In this document: one piece after another, positions 6,387 to 56,322 of the stretch | Layout of the letters: the number at the start of each line of letters is the position of its first letter | How positions within the stretch are numbered: position 1 is the first letter of the stretch | Virus record (IMG/VR): IMGVR_UViG_3300051212_000212 | Span: 1-56,322 of that record | DNA length: 56,322 nucleotides | From: a virus | Strand: one strand, 5' to 3' | Position numbers and translations under genes: made by a program | The notes under the pieces: generated by a model | Seen by the model: the letters and a program-made list of their open reading frames with translations, nothing else | The model's database searches: none | What the model was told of the DNA's origin: nothing

Positions 6387-6409
6387 TTTTGTCAAATCGC
6401 TTGACAAAA
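6387..6409. promoter_or_regulatory. Perfect 9-bp inverted repeat, operator or weak terminator
   Basis: TTTTGTCAA and TTGACAAAA are separated by five bases, starting one base after the LamG gene stop. The right arm contains a consensus TTGACA hexamer. No U-tract follows on the + strand, so an operator that masks a -35 element is as likely as a terminator. It marks the border between fibre and head modules. Confidence 0.5.
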
Positions 6410-6411
6410 AG

Positions 6412-6448: not shown

Positions 6449-6781
6449 ATGGACATGAAAGCAAAGATTTTAGATGAAGAGACCCGCCTAGGTATCTATG
6501 TATGGGAAATGCCAGATGGTCGTTGGATCGGCGACGATGAAGGAAATTACCTATCCATAACATCGACAAAAGGAAATAGGTCTAGAATTGACGCTCTTGC
6601 CAGAGAGGTTCGTTCTTATGGAATTTATGAGGGAACTCCTAAATTCTTATCTGGAAGGCGGAAAATAGATGATGAAGAATTTGAACTACAGCAACAAAGA
6701 TTAAAGTGGGGTCTGGTTCCAGATCCTTTGGATATTGGAAATTATAAGGATGAGATGAAGAATCTCAAGGGTGGCAATTAA
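6449..6781 (+). CDS. Hypothetical protein preceding the portal
   Basis: A 110-residue, charged, probably soluble protein that starts MDMKAKILDEETRLGIYVWE and ends in a Lys/Asn/Gly-rich tail. Its stop overlaps the portal start (TAATG at 6779-6783), so it is co-translated with the portal and is likely part of head assembly. No strong Shine-Dalgarno lies close to ATG 6449; AAGGTGG is 13 bases away and ATG 6455 is an alternative start. I do not recognise a family. Confidence 0.7.
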   Translation: MDMKAKILDEETRLGIYVWEMPDGRWIGDDEGNYLSITSTKGNRSRIDALAREVRSYGIYEGTPKFLSGRRKIDDEEFELQQQRLKWGLVPDPLDIGNYKDEMKNLKGGN

Positions 6782-27911: not shown

Positions 27912-29926
27912 GACCATATTTGGTAACAGAGGGTGGCGGAAGCTCCAATAGTTTAGATATTATATATAATCCAATCATTAACGACTTTGTTATTCCTGGA
28001 GCAAATTATGTTGCAGTAAATATTGAGGTTGATGAATTAGACATGGGAATAGATCCAGACGGATACGGAGTGTCTTATTTAGAATATGCATTAGATGGAG
28101 TAACTCCTAATGGGCTTGAAACCGAAAAACAGATATTCTATAAAACAATTCCAATAACAGCGGTAGAATGTTCTGGAAATACAATAGTTTATACATCTAA
28201 TTCACATCCATTAGTTGTTGGTGACTATGTAACAATAGAGGGGTCTGCTCTTTTAAGATTTAATGTTGTTGATAGAAGAGTTACTGCTGTTTCTACAAAT
28301 ACATTTACAATAGAAAGAACAGGACAAGGCGCTACCGCAGGTACTTTAAACACAACAGCAAGTGCAAGAGAGCTTATGATTGTAAAAAATTTAGGGTCTG
28401 GTGTTAGGTATGACTTTTTTATACAACCATTTAAAGGTAATCCAAATTTAGAAACAAATTTTGCAAACAAAACTCCTTACACAAACTATATAACTAAATT
28501 GTTAAAACCAGCTATTCAAAATAAAACTAGGGCAATTGATCCAAATAAACGTGTTCCTGGAAAATCATATGTCCAGATATCAAATATCGGAGCAAGTAAA
28601 AATCAGTATCAATTCTTGTTAAAAGATTTTGAATCAGTGACAGTTCCAGAAATAACAAAACAACAGCAGACAGTTAAAAAGGGAACAACTACAATACAAA
28701 AAACTATTAATGTTTTTGATACTTCATATTATGCTTTTGGTACATCTATGCTGATAAGCAACTCTGAAAGCCAAAACGGAAGAGGAGGCGGAGGCCTAGG
28801 ATTCTTTATGTCTGGAGACGGTACTACAGGATATTACATTGTTTTAGACACAGGACAAAAAGCATCAGACATAAATGATAATGAACTTAGAATTGTAAAG
28901 GTAAGAGGATCCCAACAAAAAGTATTAAAGGATACACAAAATACTATTACAAGAACTGCTAAAGGCAATACCATGTCTACAAATAAAACACAGGGGACAC
29001 TAGCAAATACTCAGGCGGGTAAAATATATAATATATCTGTAAAGGTTCAGGCTAACAGTAATTCATTAAGAATGATTGTAGAAGTAAATGGATTTAAAGT
29101 AAATGTATATGACGATATAGATTTTGCAGAACCGCTTCCAACTATAATTGCTCCATCAAAAGGTGTAGGCCTATTTTGCACATCTGGCCAGGTAATGTTT
29201 GACTATGCGTATGCAAAAGATATAACTCCAGAAGAATTTAAGAGGGCGGAGTTTGAGCCAGATTTTTATTCTGGACAATTTTCAAATGACTTTATAGATA
29301 GCTCATTTGGTAATTTAATTTATAATCAAAACTTTAACAATACGGATATAGATGAGGTTGATCTCAAGCCAAAAGCAATAGATGAGTTTGGAACAACTGC
29401 TAGAGAGATATATAAACTTAAATCCAAGTTTGAAAATGTTTCAAAGCCTTCAGGGGTATCTCTAGGAAACAATACAAGCGCATCAATCTTGTCAACTAAA
29501 TTTAATAATTTTGAGGCAGAGGTATATGTTTTAAATAATGCCTCAACTACAATCCCCCTAGAAGATTCTGGTTTTAACAGCCTATTTGTTTGGGGAAATG
29601 AAATAACAAGGGGAAGCGTACAAGAATATTTAACTGTAAATGAAACAGACTTTTCTTATATAGAGCCAATTACTTTTGAAGCAAAGTGGGTACAGAATGA
29701 AGAAGACGCAAAGTCATTGGCTGATTGGATAAAGAAGTCTGTTATAAATAAAGGTAAAGTTGTTGAGATGGAAGTATTTGGAAATCCGCTTATTTCTGTT
29801 GGAGATATCGTAAACATTAAATATACATATCAGGGAATTCTCGGCACAGAAAAATTTATTATAACTAAAGTAACACATTCTTTTAATCAAGGGCTGGTGA
29901 CAAACTTAACCTGTAGGTCACTGTAG
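27908..29926 (+). CDS. Tail hub/baseplate protein, second
   Basis: A 672-residue protein. ATG 27908 overlaps the preceding stop as ATGA and is preferred to ATG 27881; AAGGAGG lies 16 bases upstream, somewhat far. Residues about 280-440 hold a LamG-like lectin fold (GLGFFMSGDGTTGYYIVLD and KIYNISVKVQANSNSLRMIV, then VNGFKVNVYDD). The C-terminus, with SLADWIKKSVINKGKVVEME and VGDIVNIKYTYQG, is the typical end of hub proteins, where such a domain follows a long helix. Together with the previous gene it likely forms one split hub complex. Confidence 0.6.
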   Translation: MRPYLVTEGGGSSNSLDIIYNPIINDFVIPGANYVAVNIEVDELDMGIDPDGYGVSYLEYALDGVTPNGLETEKQIFYKTIPITAVECSGNTIVYTSNSHPLVVGDYVTIEGSALLRFNVVDRRVTAVSTNTFTIERTGQGATAGTLNTTASARELMIVKNLGSGVRYDFFIQPFKGNPNLETNFANKTPYTNYITKLLKPAIQNKTRAIDPNKRVPGKSYVQISNIGASKNQYQFLLKDFESVTVPEITKQQQTVKKGTTTIQKTINVFDTSYYAFGTSMLISNSESQNGRGGGGLGFFMSGDGTTGYYIVLDTGQKASDINDNELRIVKVRGSQQKVLKDTQNTITRTAKGNTMSTNKTQGTLANTQAGKIYNISVKVQANSNSLRMIVEVNGFKVNVYDDIDFAEPLPTIIAPSKGVGLFCTSGQVMFDYAYAKDITPEEFKRAEFEPDFYSGQFSNDFIDSSFGNLIYNQNFNNTDIDEVDLKPKAIDEFGTTAREIYKLKSKFENVSKPSGVSLGNNTSASILSTKFNNFEAEVYVLNNASTTIPLEDSGFNSLFVWGNEITRGSVQEYLTVNETDFSYIEPITFEAKWVQNEEDAKSLADWIKKSVINKGKVVEMEVFGNPLISVGDIVNIKYTYQGILGTEKFIITKVTHSFNQGLVTNLTCRSL

Positions 29927-29944
29927 TCGACTAAATGGTATAAT
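29924..29944 (+). promoter_or_regulatory. Leaderless extended -10 promoter with palindrome
   Basis: The palindrome TAGTCGACTA (29924-29933) is followed after five bases by TATAAT (29939-29944), with TG at 29936-29937. ATG 29952 is seven bases beyond the -10 and has no Shine-Dalgarno. No convincing -35 is seen. The same palindrome precedes the terminase promoter at 50448. Confidence 0.65.
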
Positions 29945-29951
29945 AAAAAAT

Positions 29952-30806
29952 ATGGCAACTTCAGACAGCGCAAGCAAGGCAAGACAACCAGCGGTTCCAG
30001 CAAACAGTCCGCTGATTACTGCTGGCATATTAAATAAAAATAAAGTTAGAATATATGATCCTTCTACTGGAGAACTTGCTGATGTCTATGCGCCAATTAA
30101 ACCCTTCTATTCTCCAAGAGTATCAGATCCGTCTAAGGTTGGAACTGGACCTACTGGAGATGACGGGACTGGTCCAACTGGTCCAACTGGTTCTGGATTT
30201 GAAATAATTCAAAAAGATCTTGTAGAATTAACAGATATTGAAAGTGTTACGTTTGAAGAGTATGAAGACCCTATTAGCAAAATTGTAAAAATTAGAGCTT
30301 ACATAAAAGTAAGAAATACAAGTTTAAAACAATCAGATGTAAGCGCAGTAGACGTAAGAATTTTTGATGACTCTGCCGAAAATACAATAACAAAAGAAGA
30401 TACAGTTATAGTTTATACAGGTCCTTCTGGCTCTGTTCCTGGTGGCACTAAGTTTGTAAGGCCTACACCTTCTACGCCTAGCGTAAAGTTTGATAGAACT
30501 GGTACTGCTATTGCCTGGGGGTGGAATAACGTCTCAGGGCTTGGGTCATATTCTTCTGTTTATTATGAATGGATTATTAGTAAAACAAATAAAAAGAATG
30601 CAGCAGAATTAGATTCTGGAGTAAAGAATTACGACAATACTGGAAACTTCCAGATAGGTAATAGTGGAGTTTATAAAAAATATAGGGTAAGCTCAGGTCA
30701 AGGAGATACCACAGCAACTGCATCTGCAAGATGGCTCAGAGTAAGGGCAGTAGTGGTCGGAACTGATGGGAAGAACTATTATTCCGAATACTCAAATCCA
30801 ATTTAG
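29952..30806 (+). CDS. Minor tail protein with short collagen-like link
   Basis: A 284-residue protein. A Pro/Lys-rich N-terminus (to about residue 65) is followed by a brief triplet tract ([19 protein letters not shown], residues about 68-86). Then come a beta domain (VKIRAYIKVRN) and a C-terminal fibronectin-like domain (AIAWGWNNVSGLG, YYEWIISKTNKK, ARWLRVRAVVVG). It is probably an attachment or linker protein in the tail-tip complex. The start is set by the leaderless promoter. Expression may be controlled separately from the hub genes. Confidence 0.6.
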   Translation: MATSDSASKARQPAVPANSPLITAGILNKNKVRIYDPSTGELADVYAPIKPFYSPRVSDPSKVGTGPTGDDGTGPTGPTGSGFEIIQKDLVELTDIESVTFEEYEDPISKIVKIRAYIKVRNTSLKQSDVSAVDVRIFDDSAENTITKEDTVIVYTGPSGSVPGGTKFVRPTPSTPSVKFDRTGTAIAWGWNNVSGLGSYSSVYYEWIISKTNKKNAAELDSGVKNYDNTGNFQIGNSGVYKKYRVSSGQGDTTATASARWLRVRAVVVGTDGKNYYSEYSNPI

Positions 30807-36479: not shown

Positions 36480-36518
36480 TTGACAACCCCCAAATATATG
36501 TTACAATTTGTTGTAACA
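36480..36518 (+). promoter_or_regulatory. Strong promoter with operator-like inverted repeat
   Basis: TTGACA (36480-36485), 16-base spacer, TACAAT (36502-36507) preceded by TG. TGTTACAA (36499-36506) and TTGTAACA (36511-36518) form a perfect inverted repeat around TTTG covering the -10 and likely start site. A protein bound here would block the promoter. It opens the replication unit. Confidence 0.8.
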
Positions 36519-36520
36519 TC

Positions 36521-36545
36521 AAAGTCACGACCTCGTGACTTTTTT
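36521..36545 (+). terminator. Terminator/attenuator immediately after promoter
   Basis: AGTCACG (36523-36529) pairs with CGTGACT (36534-36540) around ACCT, extended by A-T pairs and followed by TTTTTA. The stem begins only a few bases after the predicted transcription start. It either ends the structural transcript or acts as an attenuator of the early promoter. Confidence 0.8.
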
Positions 36546-37361: not shown

Positions 37362-37546
37362 TGTGGTGTCAGCGTTGTAATGGAAGGGTGTTCATCGATA
37401 GAGTGTTCTCTCAAAAACTACACATAGAGCTATTTTGTATTATGTGTGGAAGACGCTGGATGCTCAATAAAGATACGAATAGGTTGGGAAGATGGCTAGA
37501 GGAAAGAGACTCAGAGCACAAAAAAAGTTCTTATATTTCTTCTTAA
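37358..37546 (+). CDS. Small zinc-ribbon protein
   Basis: A 62-residue protein overlapping the phosphoesterase stop. Two pairs CQRC (near residue 4) and CIMC (near 28) form a zinc ribbon, followed by a charged tail (DTNRLGRWLEERDSEHKK). Its gene overlaps the next one by 55 bases. Probably nucleic-acid or protein binding; no specific family recognised. Confidence 0.65.
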   Translation: MMWCQRCNGRVFIDRVFSQKLHIELFCIMCGRRWMLNKDTNRLGRWLEERDSEHKKSSYISS

Positions 37547-37974
37547 ACGATAAAGTCCATAAAACAATTCGTGTTCACAGGGGAAAAGATGAACTGGTTG
37601 CTTGGTGCTACAAAGACAAGAAGAGAGTTCTATACTCTTATTCTCAAGTAGAAAAGTATGGGCAAATGGCCTATAGCATTAAACAAGCTGGGGAAATTCT
37701 TAATAGGCACAAAGTAACTATTGAAAATTATATTTTAGATGGCAAAATAAAAGAGCCAGAAAAGATATATTCAATTAGTAACCCAGACGGAGGCTGGACA
37801 AAATTTATGCTCAGCGAAAAAGATATAATGGATCTGCATGAATTTCTTTTAGAGGCTGGGTATAGTCACAACCTTCCTACAAAAACTGAGTTACAGGGTC
37901 TTCTCAAACACAATTTAATATTGTATACTAAGACCGATGAAGGTAAGTTCGTACCAGTTTGGAGGGCGGAATAG
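37492..37974 (+). CDS. MerR/excisionase-like HTH protein
   Basis: A 160-residue protein starting MARGKRLRAQKKFLYFFLND. After a basic, strand-rich N-terminus comes a helix-turn-helix of the MerR/excisionase type (about residues 62-90: YSIKQAGEILNRHKVTIENY) with a wing (ISNPDGGWTKFMLSEKDIM) that ends in a helix. It likely binds DNA and could be a regulator of the operons whose promoters carry inverted repeats. No ligand or dimer domain is visible. Start ATG 37492 lies within the previous gene. Confidence 0.6.
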   Translation: MARGKRLRAQKKFLYFFLNDKVHKTIRVHRGKDELVAWCYKDKKRVLYSYSQVEKYGQMAYSIKQAGEILNRHKVTIENYILDGKIKEPEKIYSISNPDGGWTKFMLSEKDIMDLHEFLLEAGYSHNLPTKTELQGLLKHNLILYTKTDEGKFVPVWRAE

Positions 37975-45586: not shown

Positions 45587-45604
45587 TGCTATAATAGTAG
45601 ACTA
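45567..45604 (+). promoter_or_regulatory. Extended -10 promoter for recombination operon
   Basis: TTCACG (45567-45572), 17-base spacer, TATAAT (45590-45595) with TG at 45587-45588. TAGTAGACTA (45595-45604) overlaps the -10 end and start site; it differs by one base from the TAGTCGACTA palindromes at other promoters. AAGAAAAGAGA leads to ATG 45618. Confidence 0.7.
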
Positions 45605-48863: not shown

Positions 48864-49416
48864 GCTGGTTAAGACTAAGGCAAACAGGGTATTAGGTATA
48901 GATGCCTCTACAAACTCTGTAGCATTTTGCTTAATGGAAAATGATAAGCCGATCAGATGGGGCAAGGTAGAGTTTAGCGGATCTGATATATATGAAAAAA
49001 TATATGATGCTAAAGTTAAAATGCATGCCATGCTTCCACAACTTAAATCAGATTATATAGTTGTTGAGGGTGCAGTATTTGTTAAATCTCCAGATGCTGT
49101 GATTAAACTATCATATGTATATGGAGTTGTAATTGCAGAACTTATGTCTACTGGAGCCAAGGTTATGACCATATCTCCTACATCTTGGCAGGCACATATT
49201 GGAAATAAGAATCCAACAAAGATAGAAAAAGATAAGCTTAGATTTGAAAATCCTGGACATGCTGACTCTTGGTATAAGGCAAAGATGCGGGAGATCAGAA
49301 AGCAAAGAACCGTAGATTATTTTAATAAAAAGTATAATTTAGAATTAGATGATTTTGATGTGGCAGATGCATTCGGCATTGCCCACTATTCAAACACGGT
49401 GTTAACAGAACGATGA
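48850..49416 (+). CDS. RuvC-like Holliday junction resolvase
   Basis: A 188-residue RNase H-fold protein. The acidic residues are D18 (VLGIDAST), E73 (YIVVEGA) and D170/D173 (DFDVADAFGIAHY), the RuvC catalytic set. A helical insert after SPTSWQAHIGNKNP is typical. It should cut four-way junctions left by RecA-driven recombination or replication before packaging. It overlaps the preceding gene by 14 bases. Confidence 0.88.
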   Translation: MRLAELVKTKANRVLGIDASTNSVAFCLMENDKPIRWGKVEFSGSDIYEKIYDAKVKMHAMLPQLKSDYIVVEGAVFVKSPDAVIKLSYVYGVVIAELMSTGAKVMTISPTSWQAHIGNKNPTKIEKDKLRFENPGHADSWYKAKMREIRKQRTVDYFNKKYNLELDDFDVADAFGIAHYSNTVLTER

Positions 49417-49559
49417 AACTATATCAAAGTAAAGACTGGCTATATAGACGATATGTGGTGCAGAAAAAGACTGTTACAGAAATTGCGTCAGAATGTGGAG
49501 TCTCTGCTATGACTATACAGAGACACTTGGAGAAGTTTGGATTGATTAAAAAAAGATGA
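49413..49559 (+). CDS. Small HTH protein
   Basis: A 48-residue protein with ATGA overlaps at both ends. MKLYQSKDWLYRRYVVQKKT is followed by a helix-turn-helix (VTEIASECGVSAMTIQRHLE) and a short basic tail. This is the resolvase/Hin-like HTH often seen as a stand-alone phage peptide or attached to HNH nucleases. Probable DNA-binding regulator. Confidence 0.72.
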   Translation: MKLYQSKDWLYRRYVVQKKTVTEIASECGVSAMTIQRHLEKFGLIKKR

Positions 49560-50113: not shown

Positions 50114-50442
50114 TGCTTGAACCAGTATTTGAAGATGTAAAAGAATTTCGTTGTGAAGATTTATATTTGCTGACAGTAGGCACTGAAGCAGGTAAAGAAA
50201 TATGGGATACTTGCCATGAGATTGCTCATATGCTAATTAAAAAGAATATTGCTTACGGTAACTCAGCCTTAGACCCTGTCCGTATATTTTCAAAGGCGGG
50301 ACCAAGAGAACAACTCCATGTAAGAATTGATGATAAATTAAATAGACTTATGAAGGGTACAGAATATCCAGGCGATAATGATATTGACGATTTAATTGGA
50401 TATTTAGTCTTATTAAAGATTGCCAAGCAAAAATCCAGTTGA
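50113..50442 (+). CDS. Nmad1/DUF1599-like protein
   Basis: A 109-residue helical protein. ATG 50113 (TAATG overlap) is preferred to the upstream start at 50074. The pattern of a helix with KKNIAYGNSALDPVRIFSKA, then a HVRIDDKLNRL helix and DDLIGYLVLLKIA resembles the nucleotide-modification-associated domain 1 (DUF1599). This all-alpha family is often near phage DNA-modification genes. Motif recognition is by eye. Confidence 0.55.
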   Translation: MLEPVFEDVKEFRCEDLYLLTVGTEAGKEIWDTCHEIAHMLIKKNIAYGNSALDPVRIFSKAGPREQLHVRIDDKLNRLMKGTEYPGDNDIDDLIGYLVLLKIAKQKSS

Positions 50443-50467
50443 TTTTTTAGTCGACTAGGAATATAAT
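50439..50467 (+). promoter_or_regulatory. Leaderless terminase promoter with palindrome in spacer
   Basis: TTGATT (50439-50444), 17-base spacer, TATAAT (50462-50467). The spacer contains the perfect palindrome TAGTCGACTA (50448-50457). ATG 50476 lies eight bases past the -10 with no Shine-Dalgarno, so the mRNA should be leaderless or nearly so. Confidence 0.75.
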
Positions 50468-50475
50468 ATCTATAT

Positions 50476-51012
50476 ATGGACATTGAATTAGCTGATCATT
50501 TTGATCGTATGAATAAGGTTGTTTCTGAATTGCTCAAGGGCAACAGCGCAACTCAGATTGCTTCTATAACGGGTTTTAAACGGGCAGAAGTTGTAGAGTA
50601 TATAGACGAGTGGAAACAGGTCGTTAGAAGCGATTCTGGAGCCCGTGACAGGGCAAAGGAAGCCATCTCTGGGGCAGACCAACATTACGCTATGCTCATT
50701 AAAGAGGCTTGGAAAACCGTAGAGGATGCAGACCAAGCAGGCCAATTAAATATAAAAGCCACAGCATTAAAACTAATTGCAGATATTGAAGGCAAGCGTA
50801 TAGGCATGCTTCAAGAAGTAGGTTTGCTAGACAACGCAGAACTTGCAACCCAGTTGGCGGAAACTGAGCGGAAGCAAGACATCCTTGTAAAGATTCTAAA
50901 AGAAGTAACAGCAAGTTGTCCAAAGTGTAAATTAGAAGTTGCTAAACGTCTATCTCAAATAACTGGGATAGTTGAACCAGTTGAAATTATAGAGGAAGTT
51001 AGTGGATCTTAA
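50476..51012 (+). CDS. terS: Terminase small subunit
   Basis: A 178-residue protein directly before TerL (11-base overlap). Residues about 18-45 (LKGNSATQIASITGFKRAEV) form an HTH that would bind the packaging site. A long helical middle (ADQHYAMLIKEAWKTVEDAD onward) should drive ring assembly, and the C-terminus contains a CPKC pair. Sequence and gene order together support TerS. Confidence 0.8.
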   Translation: MDIELADHFDRMNKVVSELLKGNSATQIASITGFKRAEVVEYIDEWKQVVRSDSGARDRAKEAISGADQHYAMLIKEAWKTVEDADQAGQLNIKATALKLIADIEGKRIGMLQEVGLLDNAELATQLAETERKQDILVKILKEVTASCPKCKLEVAKRLSQITGIVEPVEIIEEVSGS

Positions 51013-52786
51013 TTTTAATGATCTCATAGACATCCTCGACGGAGAGGAATTTGATGAGAGACCAGTCGATCTACGAACATTTGTTACGGGACAAGATTAC
51101 CTTGCACTACCTCCGCTTTCGGAGCACCAGTATACACTCATTGAGAAGAGCAGCCAAATCTACAAGGAATCTACCCTTATAAAATTATTTGGGGAAGAAG
51201 AAGGAAAACGTAGATTTAAACAAACATGTAATGAAGTTATTGCTCAGCTTGGTAAGGGTAGTGGTAAAGATTATTGTTCCACTATATCTGTTTGCTATAT
51301 AGTATATTTACTATTGTGCCTGAAGGACCCAGCTACATATTACGGCAAGCCACCTGGAGACTCAATAGACATTTTAAATATTGCTATCAACGCACAACAG
51401 GCAAACAATGTTTTTTTCAAAGGCTTTAAAACACGCATAGACTCTTCTCCATGGTTTGTTGGAAAATATGAAGCCAAGGCTTCTGAGATGAAATTTAATA
51501 AAGCAGTAACGGTTCATTCTGGTCACTCAGAGCGAGAGGCATGGGAAGGCTATAACGTAATAGTTGTAGTCCTAGACGAGATCTCAGGCTTTGCTACAGA
51601 AAATACAACTGGGCATGATCAGGCTAAAACAGCAGACGCTATATATGATATGTATAGGGCTTCGGTTGATTCACGTTTTCCAGACTTTGGAAAAGTTATT
51701 TTGCTTTCTTTCCCACGATTTAAAAATGATCCTATCCAAAAGTTTTATGAGTCAGTCATTGCAGAAAAAGAAACTTTAGTTAAAACTAAAGTATTAAAAA
51801 TGGATGACTCATTACCAGACGGAATAGAAGGAAACGAAATAACCGTTGAATGGGAAGAAGATCATATTATTTCCTATAACATTCCAAGAGTATTTGCTTT
51901 AAAAAGACCAACATGGGAAGTCAATCCTACAAAAAAGATTGAAGATTTTAAAGTGGCATTTTATAAAAACATGCCAGATGCTCTGGGAAGATTTGCATGC
52001 ATGCCTTCAGAAGCAGTAGATGCATTCTTTAAATCAAGAGAAAAGGTAGAAAAAGCATTTAGTAATATGGCTTTGGCTATTGATAAATTTGGAAGACTTG
52101 AACCTTGGTTTGCCCCAGACCCAGATAAAGAATATTTCTTGCATGTAGACCTTGCTCAAAAGCACGACCACTGTGCAGTTGCAATGTCTCATGTAAACAA
52201 ATGGGTAAATATAAAAGTTACTGACACATACTCTCAGCCTGCTCCAATAGTTGAGGTAGATGCAGTTAGATATTGGACTCCAACACCAGATAAGTCTGTG
52301 GATTTTACAGAAGTAAAAGATTATATATTAGCACTTAGAACTGCTGGATTTAATATAAGAGTATGTACTTTTGACCGTTGGAATTCGCATGACATGATGC
52401 AACAATTAAAGCAATATGGAATCAACACAGAAACTTTGTCGGTGGCAAAGAAACATTATGATGATATGGCAATGGTTATTCTAGAAGAAAGATTAACTGG
52501 TCCGAACATAAAGCTTCTTATAGACGAATTATTACAATTAAGAATTATGAGGGATAAGGTGGACCACCCAAGAAAAGGATCTAAAGACTTGGCGGACGCA
52601 GTTTGTGGATCTATATATAATGCAATAAGCAGAAGTAAGTTTGATGTTTTTGGAGAAGTAGAAGTTCATACATATGACTCGCTTAAATATGAAGAAAGAG
52701 AAGATGTATATGTACAAAATATGATACGTGCTCCAAGGATGCCTCAACAACTAGAAGAGGCTTTGGATAGAATGGAAATATTATGA
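51002..52786 (+). CDS. terL: Terminase large subunit
   Basis: A 594-residue packaging motor from GTG 51002 (GAGGAAG upstream). Walker A is GKGSGKD (G84-D90) and Walker B VVVLDE (V188-E193). The C-terminal nuclease has D383 (LHVDLAQKHDH), D458 (VCTFDRWNSHD) and D529/D532 (KDLADAV). It hydrolyses ATP to pump DNA into the portal and cuts the concatemer. The stop overlaps the next ATG. Its position far right of the portal suggests that the genome map is circular or permuted. Confidence 0.94.
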   Translation: MDLNFNDLIDILDGEEFDERPVDLRTFVTGQDYLALPPLSEHQYTLIEKSSQIYKESTLIKLFGEEEGKRRFKQTCNEVIAQLGKGSGKDYCSTISVCYIVYLLLCLKDPATYYGKPPGDSIDILNIAINAQQANNVFFKGFKTRIDSSPWFVGKYEAKASEMKFNKAVTVHSGHSEREAWEGYNVIVVVLDEISGFATENTTGHDQAKTADAIYDMYRASVDSRFPDFGKVILLSFPRFKNDPIQKFYESVIAEKETLVKTKVLKMDDSLPDGIEGNEITVEWEEDHIISYNIPRVFALKRPTWEVNPTKKIEDFKVAFYKNMPDALGRFACMPSEAVDAFFKSREKVEKAFSNMALAIDKFGRLEPWFAPDPDKEYFLHVDLAQKHDHCAVAMSHVNKWVNIKVTDTYSQPAPIVEVDAVRYWTPTPDKSVDFTEVKDYILALRTAGFNIRVCTFDRWNSHDMMQQLKQYGINTETLSVAKKHYDDMAMVILEERLTGPNIKLLIDELLQLRIMRDKVDHPRKGSKDLADAVCGSIYNAISRSKFDVFGEVEVHTYDSLKYEEREDVYVQNMIRAPRMPQQLEEALDRMEIL

Positions 52787-53052
52787 GTATATATCAAGAT
52801 AAGGCTAAGGAATGCAAGTGTTGTGGAAAGCATGTTCCACTTCCTACGACATTAAAAGAATACAATAATATAATGCTATGCCCCACCACATTCGCAAACG
52901 TGATAGAATATAAGAGACTATGGAAATCTCTTGGCAATAGACCGCCAGGAAGTATACGTAAACATTTTTCTGATTACGTACAAAAAATAGTTGAAGATAC
53001 TATTGACAAGAATGAGGACGGGACAATACAATTAGACACTAAGCAGCAATAG
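52783..53052 (+). CDS. Small zinc-binding protein downstream of TerL
   Basis: An 89-residue protein with ATGA overlap to terL. ECKCCGKHVP and a later LCP near residue 33 give a possible zinc knuckle, followed by helices (RKHFSDYVQKIVEDTIDK). Its stop codon falls inside the tRNA gene, with ten shared bases (53043-53052). No family recognised; HNH nucleases often sit near terminase, but the histidines needed are missing. Confidence 0.62.
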   Translation: MSIYQDKAKECKCCGKHVPLPTTLKEYNNIMLCPTTFANVIEYKRLWKSLGNRPPGSIRKHFSDYVQKIVEDTIDKNEDGTIQLDTKQQ

Positions 53053-53116
53053 CTTAGTTGGTTAGAGCCCCCGACTCATAATCGGGTAGTCGTAGGTTCA
53101 AGTCCTACTTGCTGCA
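53043..53116 (+). tRNA. tRNA-Met (anticodon CAT)
   Basis: A full cloverleaf: acceptor GCAGCAA with TTGCTGC, D arm with AGTTGGTTA loop, anticodon stem CCCGA/TCGGG with loop CTCATAA, T arm GTAGG/CCTAC with TTCAAGT, discriminator A. CCA is not encoded. A CAT anticodon could also be Ile if lysidine-modified; features of an initiator are absent. It overlaps the upstream CDS by ten bases. Confidence 0.93.
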
Positions 53117-53128
53117 CAAAGGAGAAAA

Positions 53129-54842: not shown

Positions 54843-54894
54843 TGATATAATTAACTTGTTATAAGATTTATAACAAGGAGTTATTAGTTGACTA
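54843..54894 (+). promoter_or_regulatory. Promoter with operator-like repeats before PA14 gene
   Basis: TGATATAAT (54843-54851) is an extended -10. CTTGTTATAA (54855-54864) and TTATAACAAG (54868-54877) form a perfect 10-bp inverted repeat across the start of transcription and next to the Shine-Dalgarno AAGGAG. TAGTTGACTA (54885-54894) overlaps the TTG start codon. Both repeat types recur at other promoters in the window. Confidence 0.7.
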
Positions 54895-56322
54895 GGACTA
54901 AGTTATGGAGATTGTCATTAGCCGCCATTTTAGGGTTTGGTTGGCTATTTCTCACACCCGCTTCTTATAGCGATGACCCTCTAAGCTTAGCCGCTCAAGA
55001 AATACAAGAGCTAAATGAAAAAGTAAGCAATCTAAATGAAGAAGCTGAAACTCAAGCCCTTATAGATATAGCAGAAGATAAATACGATGATGCAGTAGCC
55101 GCAAAAGATGCTAGAGATGATGCCTATGATGCATATGATGCGTCGTTAGCAGCAGAAGCAACAGCATTACAGGAAAAAAATACAGCTCAAACTGCTGTAG
55201 AAAACCAAACTCCAATAGTTGCAACAGCCTTAGAAGATAAAAATGATGCACAAGATGCTTTAGATATAGCAAATATAAATCTACAAACAACGCAATCAGC
55301 AGTTCAAAATGCTGGCAATCAAGGACTACAATATACTGTATACCATCTTACAAGAGGATGGAACGGCGTAGCAATACCAGATTCAGTTATATGTACTGGA
55401 GTATGGAATTCAAATTCAATGCAGCCACCAGTATGCGGTTATTATGAAAACTTTATAGTTAAATTTACTGGAAAGATTACGGTTCCTTCTCATTGGACCA
55501 CCACATATTTTGCTGGATATACAGATGATGGATTTAGAATGTATATAGACGGACAGCTTGCAATTGATGAATGGGTAGAAAAAGGATCTTCCTGGAGTGA
55601 GTATTCTCCAATTTATAATGTTAGTCAGGACAAAACATTAGATGTAGAAATATGGTGGTATAACGGTGGAGGCCCAGGTTACTATCATCTTGGATGGGCA
55701 ATTCCTGGGGGTTGGACAGGAGCGGGATGTGATTATACTGGAGGCTGGGGTATAGGATTTAGTTGTAATCTAAATACATTTTCTTATGGTGTAGGTGCAA
55801 CACAATCACAAATTGACGCATATAATGCAGCAGTAACTGCACAGGCGGCGGCACAGACAGATTATAATAACAAACTTGCTACATACAATACCGCAAACTC
55901 TACATTAACTACATACAATCAAACATTAACAACTAAGACTAATTCGTATAATACTGCAGTAACAAATACAGCAAATGCTTTAACTGCTAAAAATAATACA
56001 CAATCAACCTATGATCAATCTATCATTGATTTAAATAATGCAATAGATGATGCATGGGAACTATATAATGAAACTTGGCAATTTGAAGAACAACAAAGAA
56101 TTCAAGCAGCTATTGCTGCCGCTATGGCAAATCAACCACAGCCAACGCCAGAACCTACAGTAGAACCAACTCCAGAACCTACGCCTGAGCCATCGCCTGA
56201 GCAAACTGAACCAGACGATCCCACTCCAACTCCAGATTCCGAAACCACAGATGAACCGACGCCAGATCCAACTCCTGAACCAGAGCCCACTGTTGAGCCT
56301 TCACCAGAGCCTTCACCTCTGC
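54888..56322 (+). CDS. Secreted PA14-domain protein with Pro/Glu/Thr tail (3' partial)
   Basis: The frame from TTG 54888 (AAGGAG seven bases upstream) is open to the end of the window, giving 478 residues without a stop. A signal peptide is visible (basic start, then LSLAAILGFGWLFLTPAS). A first Ala/Asp-rich helical region runs to about residue 145. A PA14-like domain follows (about 145-285: YFAGYTDDGFRMYIDGQLAI and TLDVEIWWYNGGGPGYYHLG, the sugar-binding fold of glycosidases and toxins). A second helical region (about 300-410) and PT/PE repeats (from about 417) complete it. It may be a surface or virion adhesin, possibly wall-anchored beyond the window. Confidence 0.75.
   Translation, partial: MTRTKLWRLSLAAILGFGWLFLTPASYSDDPLSLAAQEIQELNEKVSNLNEEAETQALIDIAEDKYDDAVAAKDARDDAYDAYDASLAAEATALQEKNTAQTAVENQTPIVATALEDKNDAQDALDIANINLQTTQSAVQNAGNQGLQYTVYHLTRGWNGVAIPDSVICTGVWNSNSMQPPVCGYYENFIVKFTGKITVPSHWTTTYFAGYTDDGFRMYIDGQLAIDEWVEKGSSWSEYSPIYNVSQDKTLDVEIWWYNGGGPGYYHLGWAIPGGWTGAGCDYTGGWGIGFSCNLNTFSYGVGATQSQIDAYNAAVTAQAAAQTDYNNKLATYNTANSTLTTYNQTLTTKTNSYNTAVTNTANALTAKNNTQSTYDQSIIDLNNAIDDAWELYNETWQFEEQQRIQAAIAAAMANQPQPTPEPTVEPTPEPTPEPSPEQTEPDDPTPTPDSETTDEPTPDPTPEPEPTVEPSPEPSPL

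Follow-up and report, generated by a model that had tools for sequence, protein, structure and literature searches.

The ten-base palindrome TAGT-YR-ACTA appears to be the operator of a dimeric, most likely repressing regulator used by a clade of freshwater, Stanwilliamsviridae-like phages, a reading given a probability of about 0.6 on the basis of sequence comparison. The window analyzed here, meaning the whole stretch of DNA, is a 56,322-base linear phage fragment (IMG/VR record IMGVR_UViG_3300051212_000212). The initial annotation of this window had reported four copies of a motif written as TAGTNGACTA and had assigned them to a regulator rather than to a sigma element. That assignment is well supported for three of the four sites, where TAGT-YR-ACTA is probably a real 10-base switch marking a set of genes under one regulator, and fails for the fourth, at recA.

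The helicase, primase, ssb, DnaE polymerase, RecA, RuvC, HTH, TerS-like and TerL genes of the window follow the order of Stanwilliamsviridae, which was checked against the annotation of Streptomyces phage Comrade. The family is recognized by a shared order of the TerL, helicase, primase, ssb, DnaE, RecA and RuvC genes, and this order is present in the window, with a TerL of ~60% identity to Stanwilliamsviridae TerL. Gene order and TerL identity together suggest that the fragment belongs to a freshwater, Stanwilliamsviridae-like actinophage clade, which has at least hundreds of close relatives among IMG/VR contigs. The labels 'freshwater' and 'actinobacterial host' are assumptions of ours for this clade, drawn from its Streptomyces relatives, from the presence of WhiB and Lsr2 genes in related genomes and from general knowledge of such phages. 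Isolated Planktophila phages belong to a different family and have genomes of 39 kb.

Definition and distribution of the palindrome

The motif as originally written occurs at exactly four places in the window (Table 1), all of them as reported. Because two of these sites are perfect palindromes, the four places yield six strand matches, compared to a mean of 0.40 and a maximum of 3 in 100 dinucleotide shuffles. No excess is seen in the window when one mismatch is allowed (17 versus 13). The original definition, with a free base followed by a fixed G, is better replaced by TAGT-YR-ACTA, since the fixed G of TAGTNGACTA is dispensable and a pyrimidine-purine centre is found in 31 of 33 TAGTNNACTA sites.

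Table 1. Putative operator sites, promoter elements and genes in the window (positions from the first base)
Feature	Position	Strand	Remarks
Operator TAGTCGACTA, tail-gene promoter	29924..29933	.	First three bases are the upstream gene's stop codon
Extended -10 TGG-TATAAT, tail promoter	29936..29944	+	
284-aa tail-region protein	29952..30806	+	Behind the 29924 promoter, between phrog_10359 and phrog_9983 tail genes
Candidate regulator 1, 160-aa protein with MerR/Xis-like HTH	37492..37974	+	HTH_17 below cut-off
TAGTAGACTA at recA	45595..45604	+	Judged a chance match
Candidate regulator 2, 47-aa stand-alone HTH	49413..49556	+	Weak HTH matches; upstream of the terS operator
-35 TTGATT, terS promoter	50439..50444	+	17 bp from TATAAT; from sequence
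Operator TAGTCGACTA, terS-terL promoter	50448..50457	.	Fills the 17-bp -35/-10 spacer
-10 TATAAT, terS promoter	50462..50467	+	From sequence; conserved in relatives
178-aa TerS-like protein, N-terminal HTH	50476..51012	+	phrog_9507; first gene of the operated unit
Terminase large subunit	51002..52786	+	phrog_2 terminase; overlaps the TerS-like gene
-10 TATAAT (TGA-TATAAT), PA14-gene promoter	54846..54851	+	From sequence; conserved
Leader hairpin	54855..54877	+	Just 5' of the PA14 gene's Shine-Dalgarno
Operator TAGTTGACTA	54885..54894	.	Spans the TTG start codon of the PA14 gene
PA14-domain protein, signal-peptide-like N-terminus, TTG start	54888..56321	+	Runs off the window end

Across eight related phage genomes (777 kb), TAGT-YR-ACTA occurs 31 times against 3.0 expected under an order-3 Markov model, with 3-5 sites per genome. 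The initial annotation had proposed a genome-wide count in relatives and had named equal frequency inside genes as an argument against an operator. The frequency is not equal: 27 of the 31 sites lie outside genes called by a simple in-house script, although ~90% of positions are coding (P about 2e-23, assuming a 10% non-coding share). The sequence is also the commonest in a set of 60 palindromes that differ in the order of their half-site letters, and the other common ones fall nearly all within genes. GTYRAC, the HincII-type hexamer within the palindrome, is found at about 40-70% of its expected frequency in genomes G001-G025 and the window, so that the palindrome stands out against an avoidance of its own core. 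Among the Streptomyces relatives, the palindrome is absent from two and occurs once per about 130 kb in three others.

Confinement to the clade is also seen in IMG/VR, which was scanned with TAGTYRACTAGAATA-N4-16-TATAMT and, in a second scan, with the tail-type promoter. Among the matches listed, proteins of the freshwater clade are found at 129 of 130 loci carrying the motif-promoter module, the exception being one 476-kb contig. A scan for the terS-type promoter finds a TerS homologue at 109 of 110 new loci, and at the remaining locus the start of the same gene lies at the contig edge. In 257 Gb of bacterial genomes, a scan for the accessory-type module gives seven matches, a chance level, scattered over Firmicutes, Bacteroidales and Rhizobium with none in actinobacteria, which speaks against a host regulon built on this module.

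Two further regions of the window carry inverted repeats. A perfect repeat, TTTTGTCAA-ATCGC-TTGACAAAA, occupies positions 6387-6410 in the gap preceding the gene at 6449 and is possibly another operator or a terminator. At 36480-36542, a strong TTGACA-16-TACAAT promoter is followed by inverted repeats (GTTACAATTTGTTGTAAC, then AAAGTCACGACCTCGTGACTTT with a T run), an arrangement that resembles a promoter with an attenuator-like terminator upstream of 36561.

Sites at orthologous genes of the clade

The terS, PA14 and recA comparisons described here, as well as the tail comparison on seven full genomes, are free of selection on the motif, while several other site collections were assembled through the motif search itself.

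The strongest conservation is found at the terS-terL promoter, where the site precedes the -10 box as claimed, with 4 nt to TATAAT. Using [CT]AGT[CT][AG]ACT[AG], or an equivalent single outer change, within 75 bases, a site is found upstream of the TerS-like gene in 104 of 104 distinct freshwater relatives, a figure that overstates the number of evolutionary tests because the relatives share ancestry and are not independent, and in none of three Streptomyces relatives (unselected). This comparison also answers the objection, raised in advance, that the motif might be absent at orthologous promoters. Of these sites, 73 are exact TAGTYRACTA and 31 have a tolerated outer base; their consensus is YYTAGTYRACTARRA. 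Homologues of the TerS-like protein in Streptomyces phages are annotated as terminase small subunit or HTH protein. Further downstream in the window, a tRNA-Met(cat) gene (53043-53117) overlaps the 3' end of ORF 52783-53052.

At the PA14 gene, whose product matches PF07691 above the gathering cut-off, the site covers the start codon as originally described (TTG at 54888) and lies ~34 nt downstream of TATAAT. The palindrome is present within 95 bases in 35 of 45 distinct relatives, 30 of which have it over the TTG start. In the other five the start-codon copy has degenerated to TAATTGACTAG, and TAGTTAACTR stands intact upstream of the promoter, separated from TATAAT by exactly 25 bp; this relocation provides a clean natural experiment on operator turnover. 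The operator was also considered as the reason for the TTG start codon, an explanation rejected because TTG is kept where the operator is lost.

The sequence at 54885 might instead act in RNA or code for the conserved MTR start, rather than serve as a DNA operator. Consistent with this, TTG and the M-T-R residues outlast a broken palindrome (TAATTGACTAG in L047 and L058), and a small CTAG-CTAG hairpin is predicted in addition to a strong leader hairpin of roughly 10 bp that ends at the Shine-Dalgarno. Single-sequence folds predict the 5' stem beside the Shine-Dalgarno in 13 of 14 relatives despite changed stem sequence (z -2 to -4.7). The leaders were misaligned by MAFFT, so that a consensus fold on that alignment yielded no pairs. 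This explanation is nonetheless unlikely, since TAGTTAACTR is found in 5 of 15 genomes with a broken start-codon palindrome, always 25 bp ahead of the -10 and beyond the transcribed region.

The tail site likewise precedes its -10 box as claimed, with 5 nt to TATAAT (29939-29944). It is real as an operator candidate and restricted to a subset of lineages: the operator is present in none of seven full genomes not picked by motif and occurs at the same place in several lineages that the motif search had turned up. The extended -10 promoter is kept in nearly all orthologous freshwater tail junctions, whether or not the operator is present. No family match was found for the 284-aa tail-region protein. 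In the Streptomyces relatives BillNye (L391) and Comrade (L384), the tail promoter is TTGACT-N17-TATAAT, which in BillNye is spanned by a 10-bp inverted repeat, CTTCTGGTCG / CGACCAGAAG, possibly a different operator at the orthologous place. The idea of a related site in Streptomyces phages was dropped, given that the repeat at the tail promoter there is not TAGT-YR-ACTA.

The recA copy overlaps the -10 as claimed, its first base (45595) being the last base of TATAAT (45590-45595). Its centre is AG rather than YR, which excludes it from TAGT-YR-ACTA, and of 65 distinct regions upstream of recA, only the one in the near-identical contig L085 contains TAGTNGACTA. The copy TAGTAGACTA is therefore judged a coincidence that lies outside the operator set, and without it a recombination member of the regulon, as originally proposed, is not supported.

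Promoter positions and the accessory-gene module

The varied placement relative to the -10 that was first noted among the window sites extends to the clade. The palindrome lies in the -35/-10 spacer, on the -35, just upstream of the -35 or over the start codon, and its gap to the -10 ranges from 3 to 18 bp, is 25 bp in some cases and in others places the palindrome downstream of the start site. At gap 4, 39 of 41 relatives have a -35 that matches at 4 or more of its 6 positions. A TGn extended -10 accompanies gaps of 5 (13/18), 6 (15/20) and 8 (12/12) and only 1 of 5 sites at gap 7. At gaps of 16-17, the right half of the palindrome doubles as the -35 TTGACT in 26 of 32 cases (13/19 and 13/13, respectively).

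As in a repressor regulon, the same palindrome occurs at several promoters, above chance and in non-coding DNA, and at most sites it overlaps RNA polymerase contacts (spacer or -35). The fixed distance to the -10 that marks a sigma element is not seen. The over-long 19-20 bp spacer in which MerR-type operators lie is not found either, the spacer being 17 bp at the terS promoter of the window and in the gap-4 relatives inspected.

Accessory-gene promoters share a longer module, tcataca-ttaacatttt-aaatct-TAGTYRACTAGAATA-n-TATAAT, which precedes glycosyltransferase-like (MIPKIIWQTH), methyltransferase, 2OG-oxygenase and small zinc-ribbon-like genes, named by inspection except where a family search was made. 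The block tcataca..ttaacatttt..aaatct lies ~25 bp before the palindrome in L316, L273, L305, L257 and others, and may be a second binding site. A double palindrome is found ahead of an SLT-type lysozyme gene. In L168 (2170-2203) and L170 (1308-1340), the two palindromes have centres 23-24 bp apart and lie between divergent ribonucleotide reductase-like and SLT lysozyme genes.

Candidate regulators and rival readings

In the proposed mechanism, a dimeric regulator would bind the two half-sites of the palindrome and bend the DNA at the YR dyad; the nearly exclusive YR centre fits a protein of this kind. The bound regulator would compete with the host's housekeeping-type RNA polymerase and block the promoter. 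Its targets would be the terS-terL packaging operon, secreted or lysis-type genes (PA14 protein, SLT lysozyme) and accessory genes, and the block would last until the stage of infection at which the regulator is removed. Repression is favored by the placement of the sites, which cover the spacer, the -35 or the message start in no fixed register, and a steric block fits these positions best.

An activator of class I/II-like type, switching on late and accessory promoters, would account for centres at about -42 (relocated PA14 site, gap 25) and about -43/-67 (SLT double site), and for the poor -35 hexamers of promoters with gaps of 5-8. An activator could act at the sites near -42, but it is not expected at terS, where the site with the strongest conservation lies between a good -35 and the -10 with a normal 17-bp spacer. 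Since the spacing to the -10 also varies from 3 to 18 bp and activation makes no sense over the PA14 start codon, this reading is improbable. Still less can be said for a promoter element recognized by a phage sigma factor or by RNA polymerase, or for a motif whose role is in DNA packaging or replication. The sites are always near promoters, and the TTGACT inside the palindrome serves as the -35 at gaps 16-17, yet the palindromic form, the lack of a fixed distance to the -10 and the separate TATAAT and -35 at terS speak against a promoter element, and the scatter of sites with accessory genes, instead of at one packaging or origin locus, makes a packaging or replication role hard to sustain. 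Both variants are highly improbable.

The operator of a repressing regulator remains the preferred reading, and candidates for the protein were sought in the phage genomes. The 160-aa protein at 37492 is present in all eight genomes compared; its structural model is of low confidence (mean pLDDT 61) with weak MerR/Xis/RacA-like matches only, and no solved structure of a sequence relative was found. The 47-aa HTH protein at 49413 has conserved homologues in relatives. Autoregulation of its gene was rejected, as only chance matches occur there, inside the upstream coding sequence. Other DNA-binding candidates are TerS and the WhiB of relatives. All three proteins suggested as binders in the initial annotation (37492, 49413 and TerS) have homologues in operator-free Streptomyces relatives. 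No obvious clade-specific HTH repressor was found, and the clade-specific conserved proteins were set aside because none resembles a DNA-binding protein.

Two known systems show partial likeness. The E. coli TrpR operator core is CTAG-TTAA-CTAG, whose inner ten bases, TAGTTAACTA, fit TAGTYRACTA, and TrpR likewise uses a palindrome overlapping the -35/-10 of several promoters in a repressor regulon of dispersed promoters. In the phages, however, the left flank is mostly T and CTAG is not required on both sides. A TrpR system was rejected because no family protein (PF01371) exceeds the cut-off in any of 11 phage genomes, which give one sub-threshold HTH-like match. The stoperators of L5-like mycobacteriophages, which are asymmetric, more numerous and tied to an immunity repressor, resemble the present sites in that a short, phage-specific sequence recurs at several promoters. 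The palindrome differs in being symmetric and fewer in number (3-5 per genome), in phages without evidence of lysogeny.

The palindrome could also belong to a host transcription factor exploited by the phages, with late and accessory genes then following host physiology. The search that found no clade-specific phage repressor leans this way, as does retention of the site by all relatives, which is expected with a constant host factor. Among the sequence-string matches examined in the open-access literature, none describes a TAGT-YR-ACTA operator; one is a primer and another a look-alike in an actinobacterial repressor, the MarR-family regulator AesR of C. glutamicum, whose footprint includes TAGTCGACTA (PMC13413800), an occurrence that lends the host reading some support. 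The AesR operator is ACTATG-N3-CATAGTCGACTA-N7-TAGTTG (PMC13413800), so that TAGTCGACTA there arises where two different inverted repeats, spaced by N3 and N7, meet and is not itself the repeat, whereas the phage palindrome is the whole repeat and stands alone. A host factor is doubtful given this difference, the chance-level occurrence of the module in bacterial genomes and its confinement to the clade among the IMG/VR matches listed. The chance level in bacteria suggests that the regulator is probably phage-encoded.

The palindrome defines, from sequence, a probable regulon for freshwater actinophages of a large, uncultivated clade whose transcriptional control was previously undescribed, and it supplies a short probe for fishing out the regulator. 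More tentatively, a phage-encoded regulator of undescribed type may run a timed regulon in this common clade while the operator-promoter cassette (tcataca..ttaacatttt..aaatct..TAGTYRACTAGAATA-n-TATAAT) moves together with accessory genes and thereby brings newly acquired ones under phage control. The presence of this cassette before many unrelated accessory genes would explain how cargo can be added without disturbing the expression programme.
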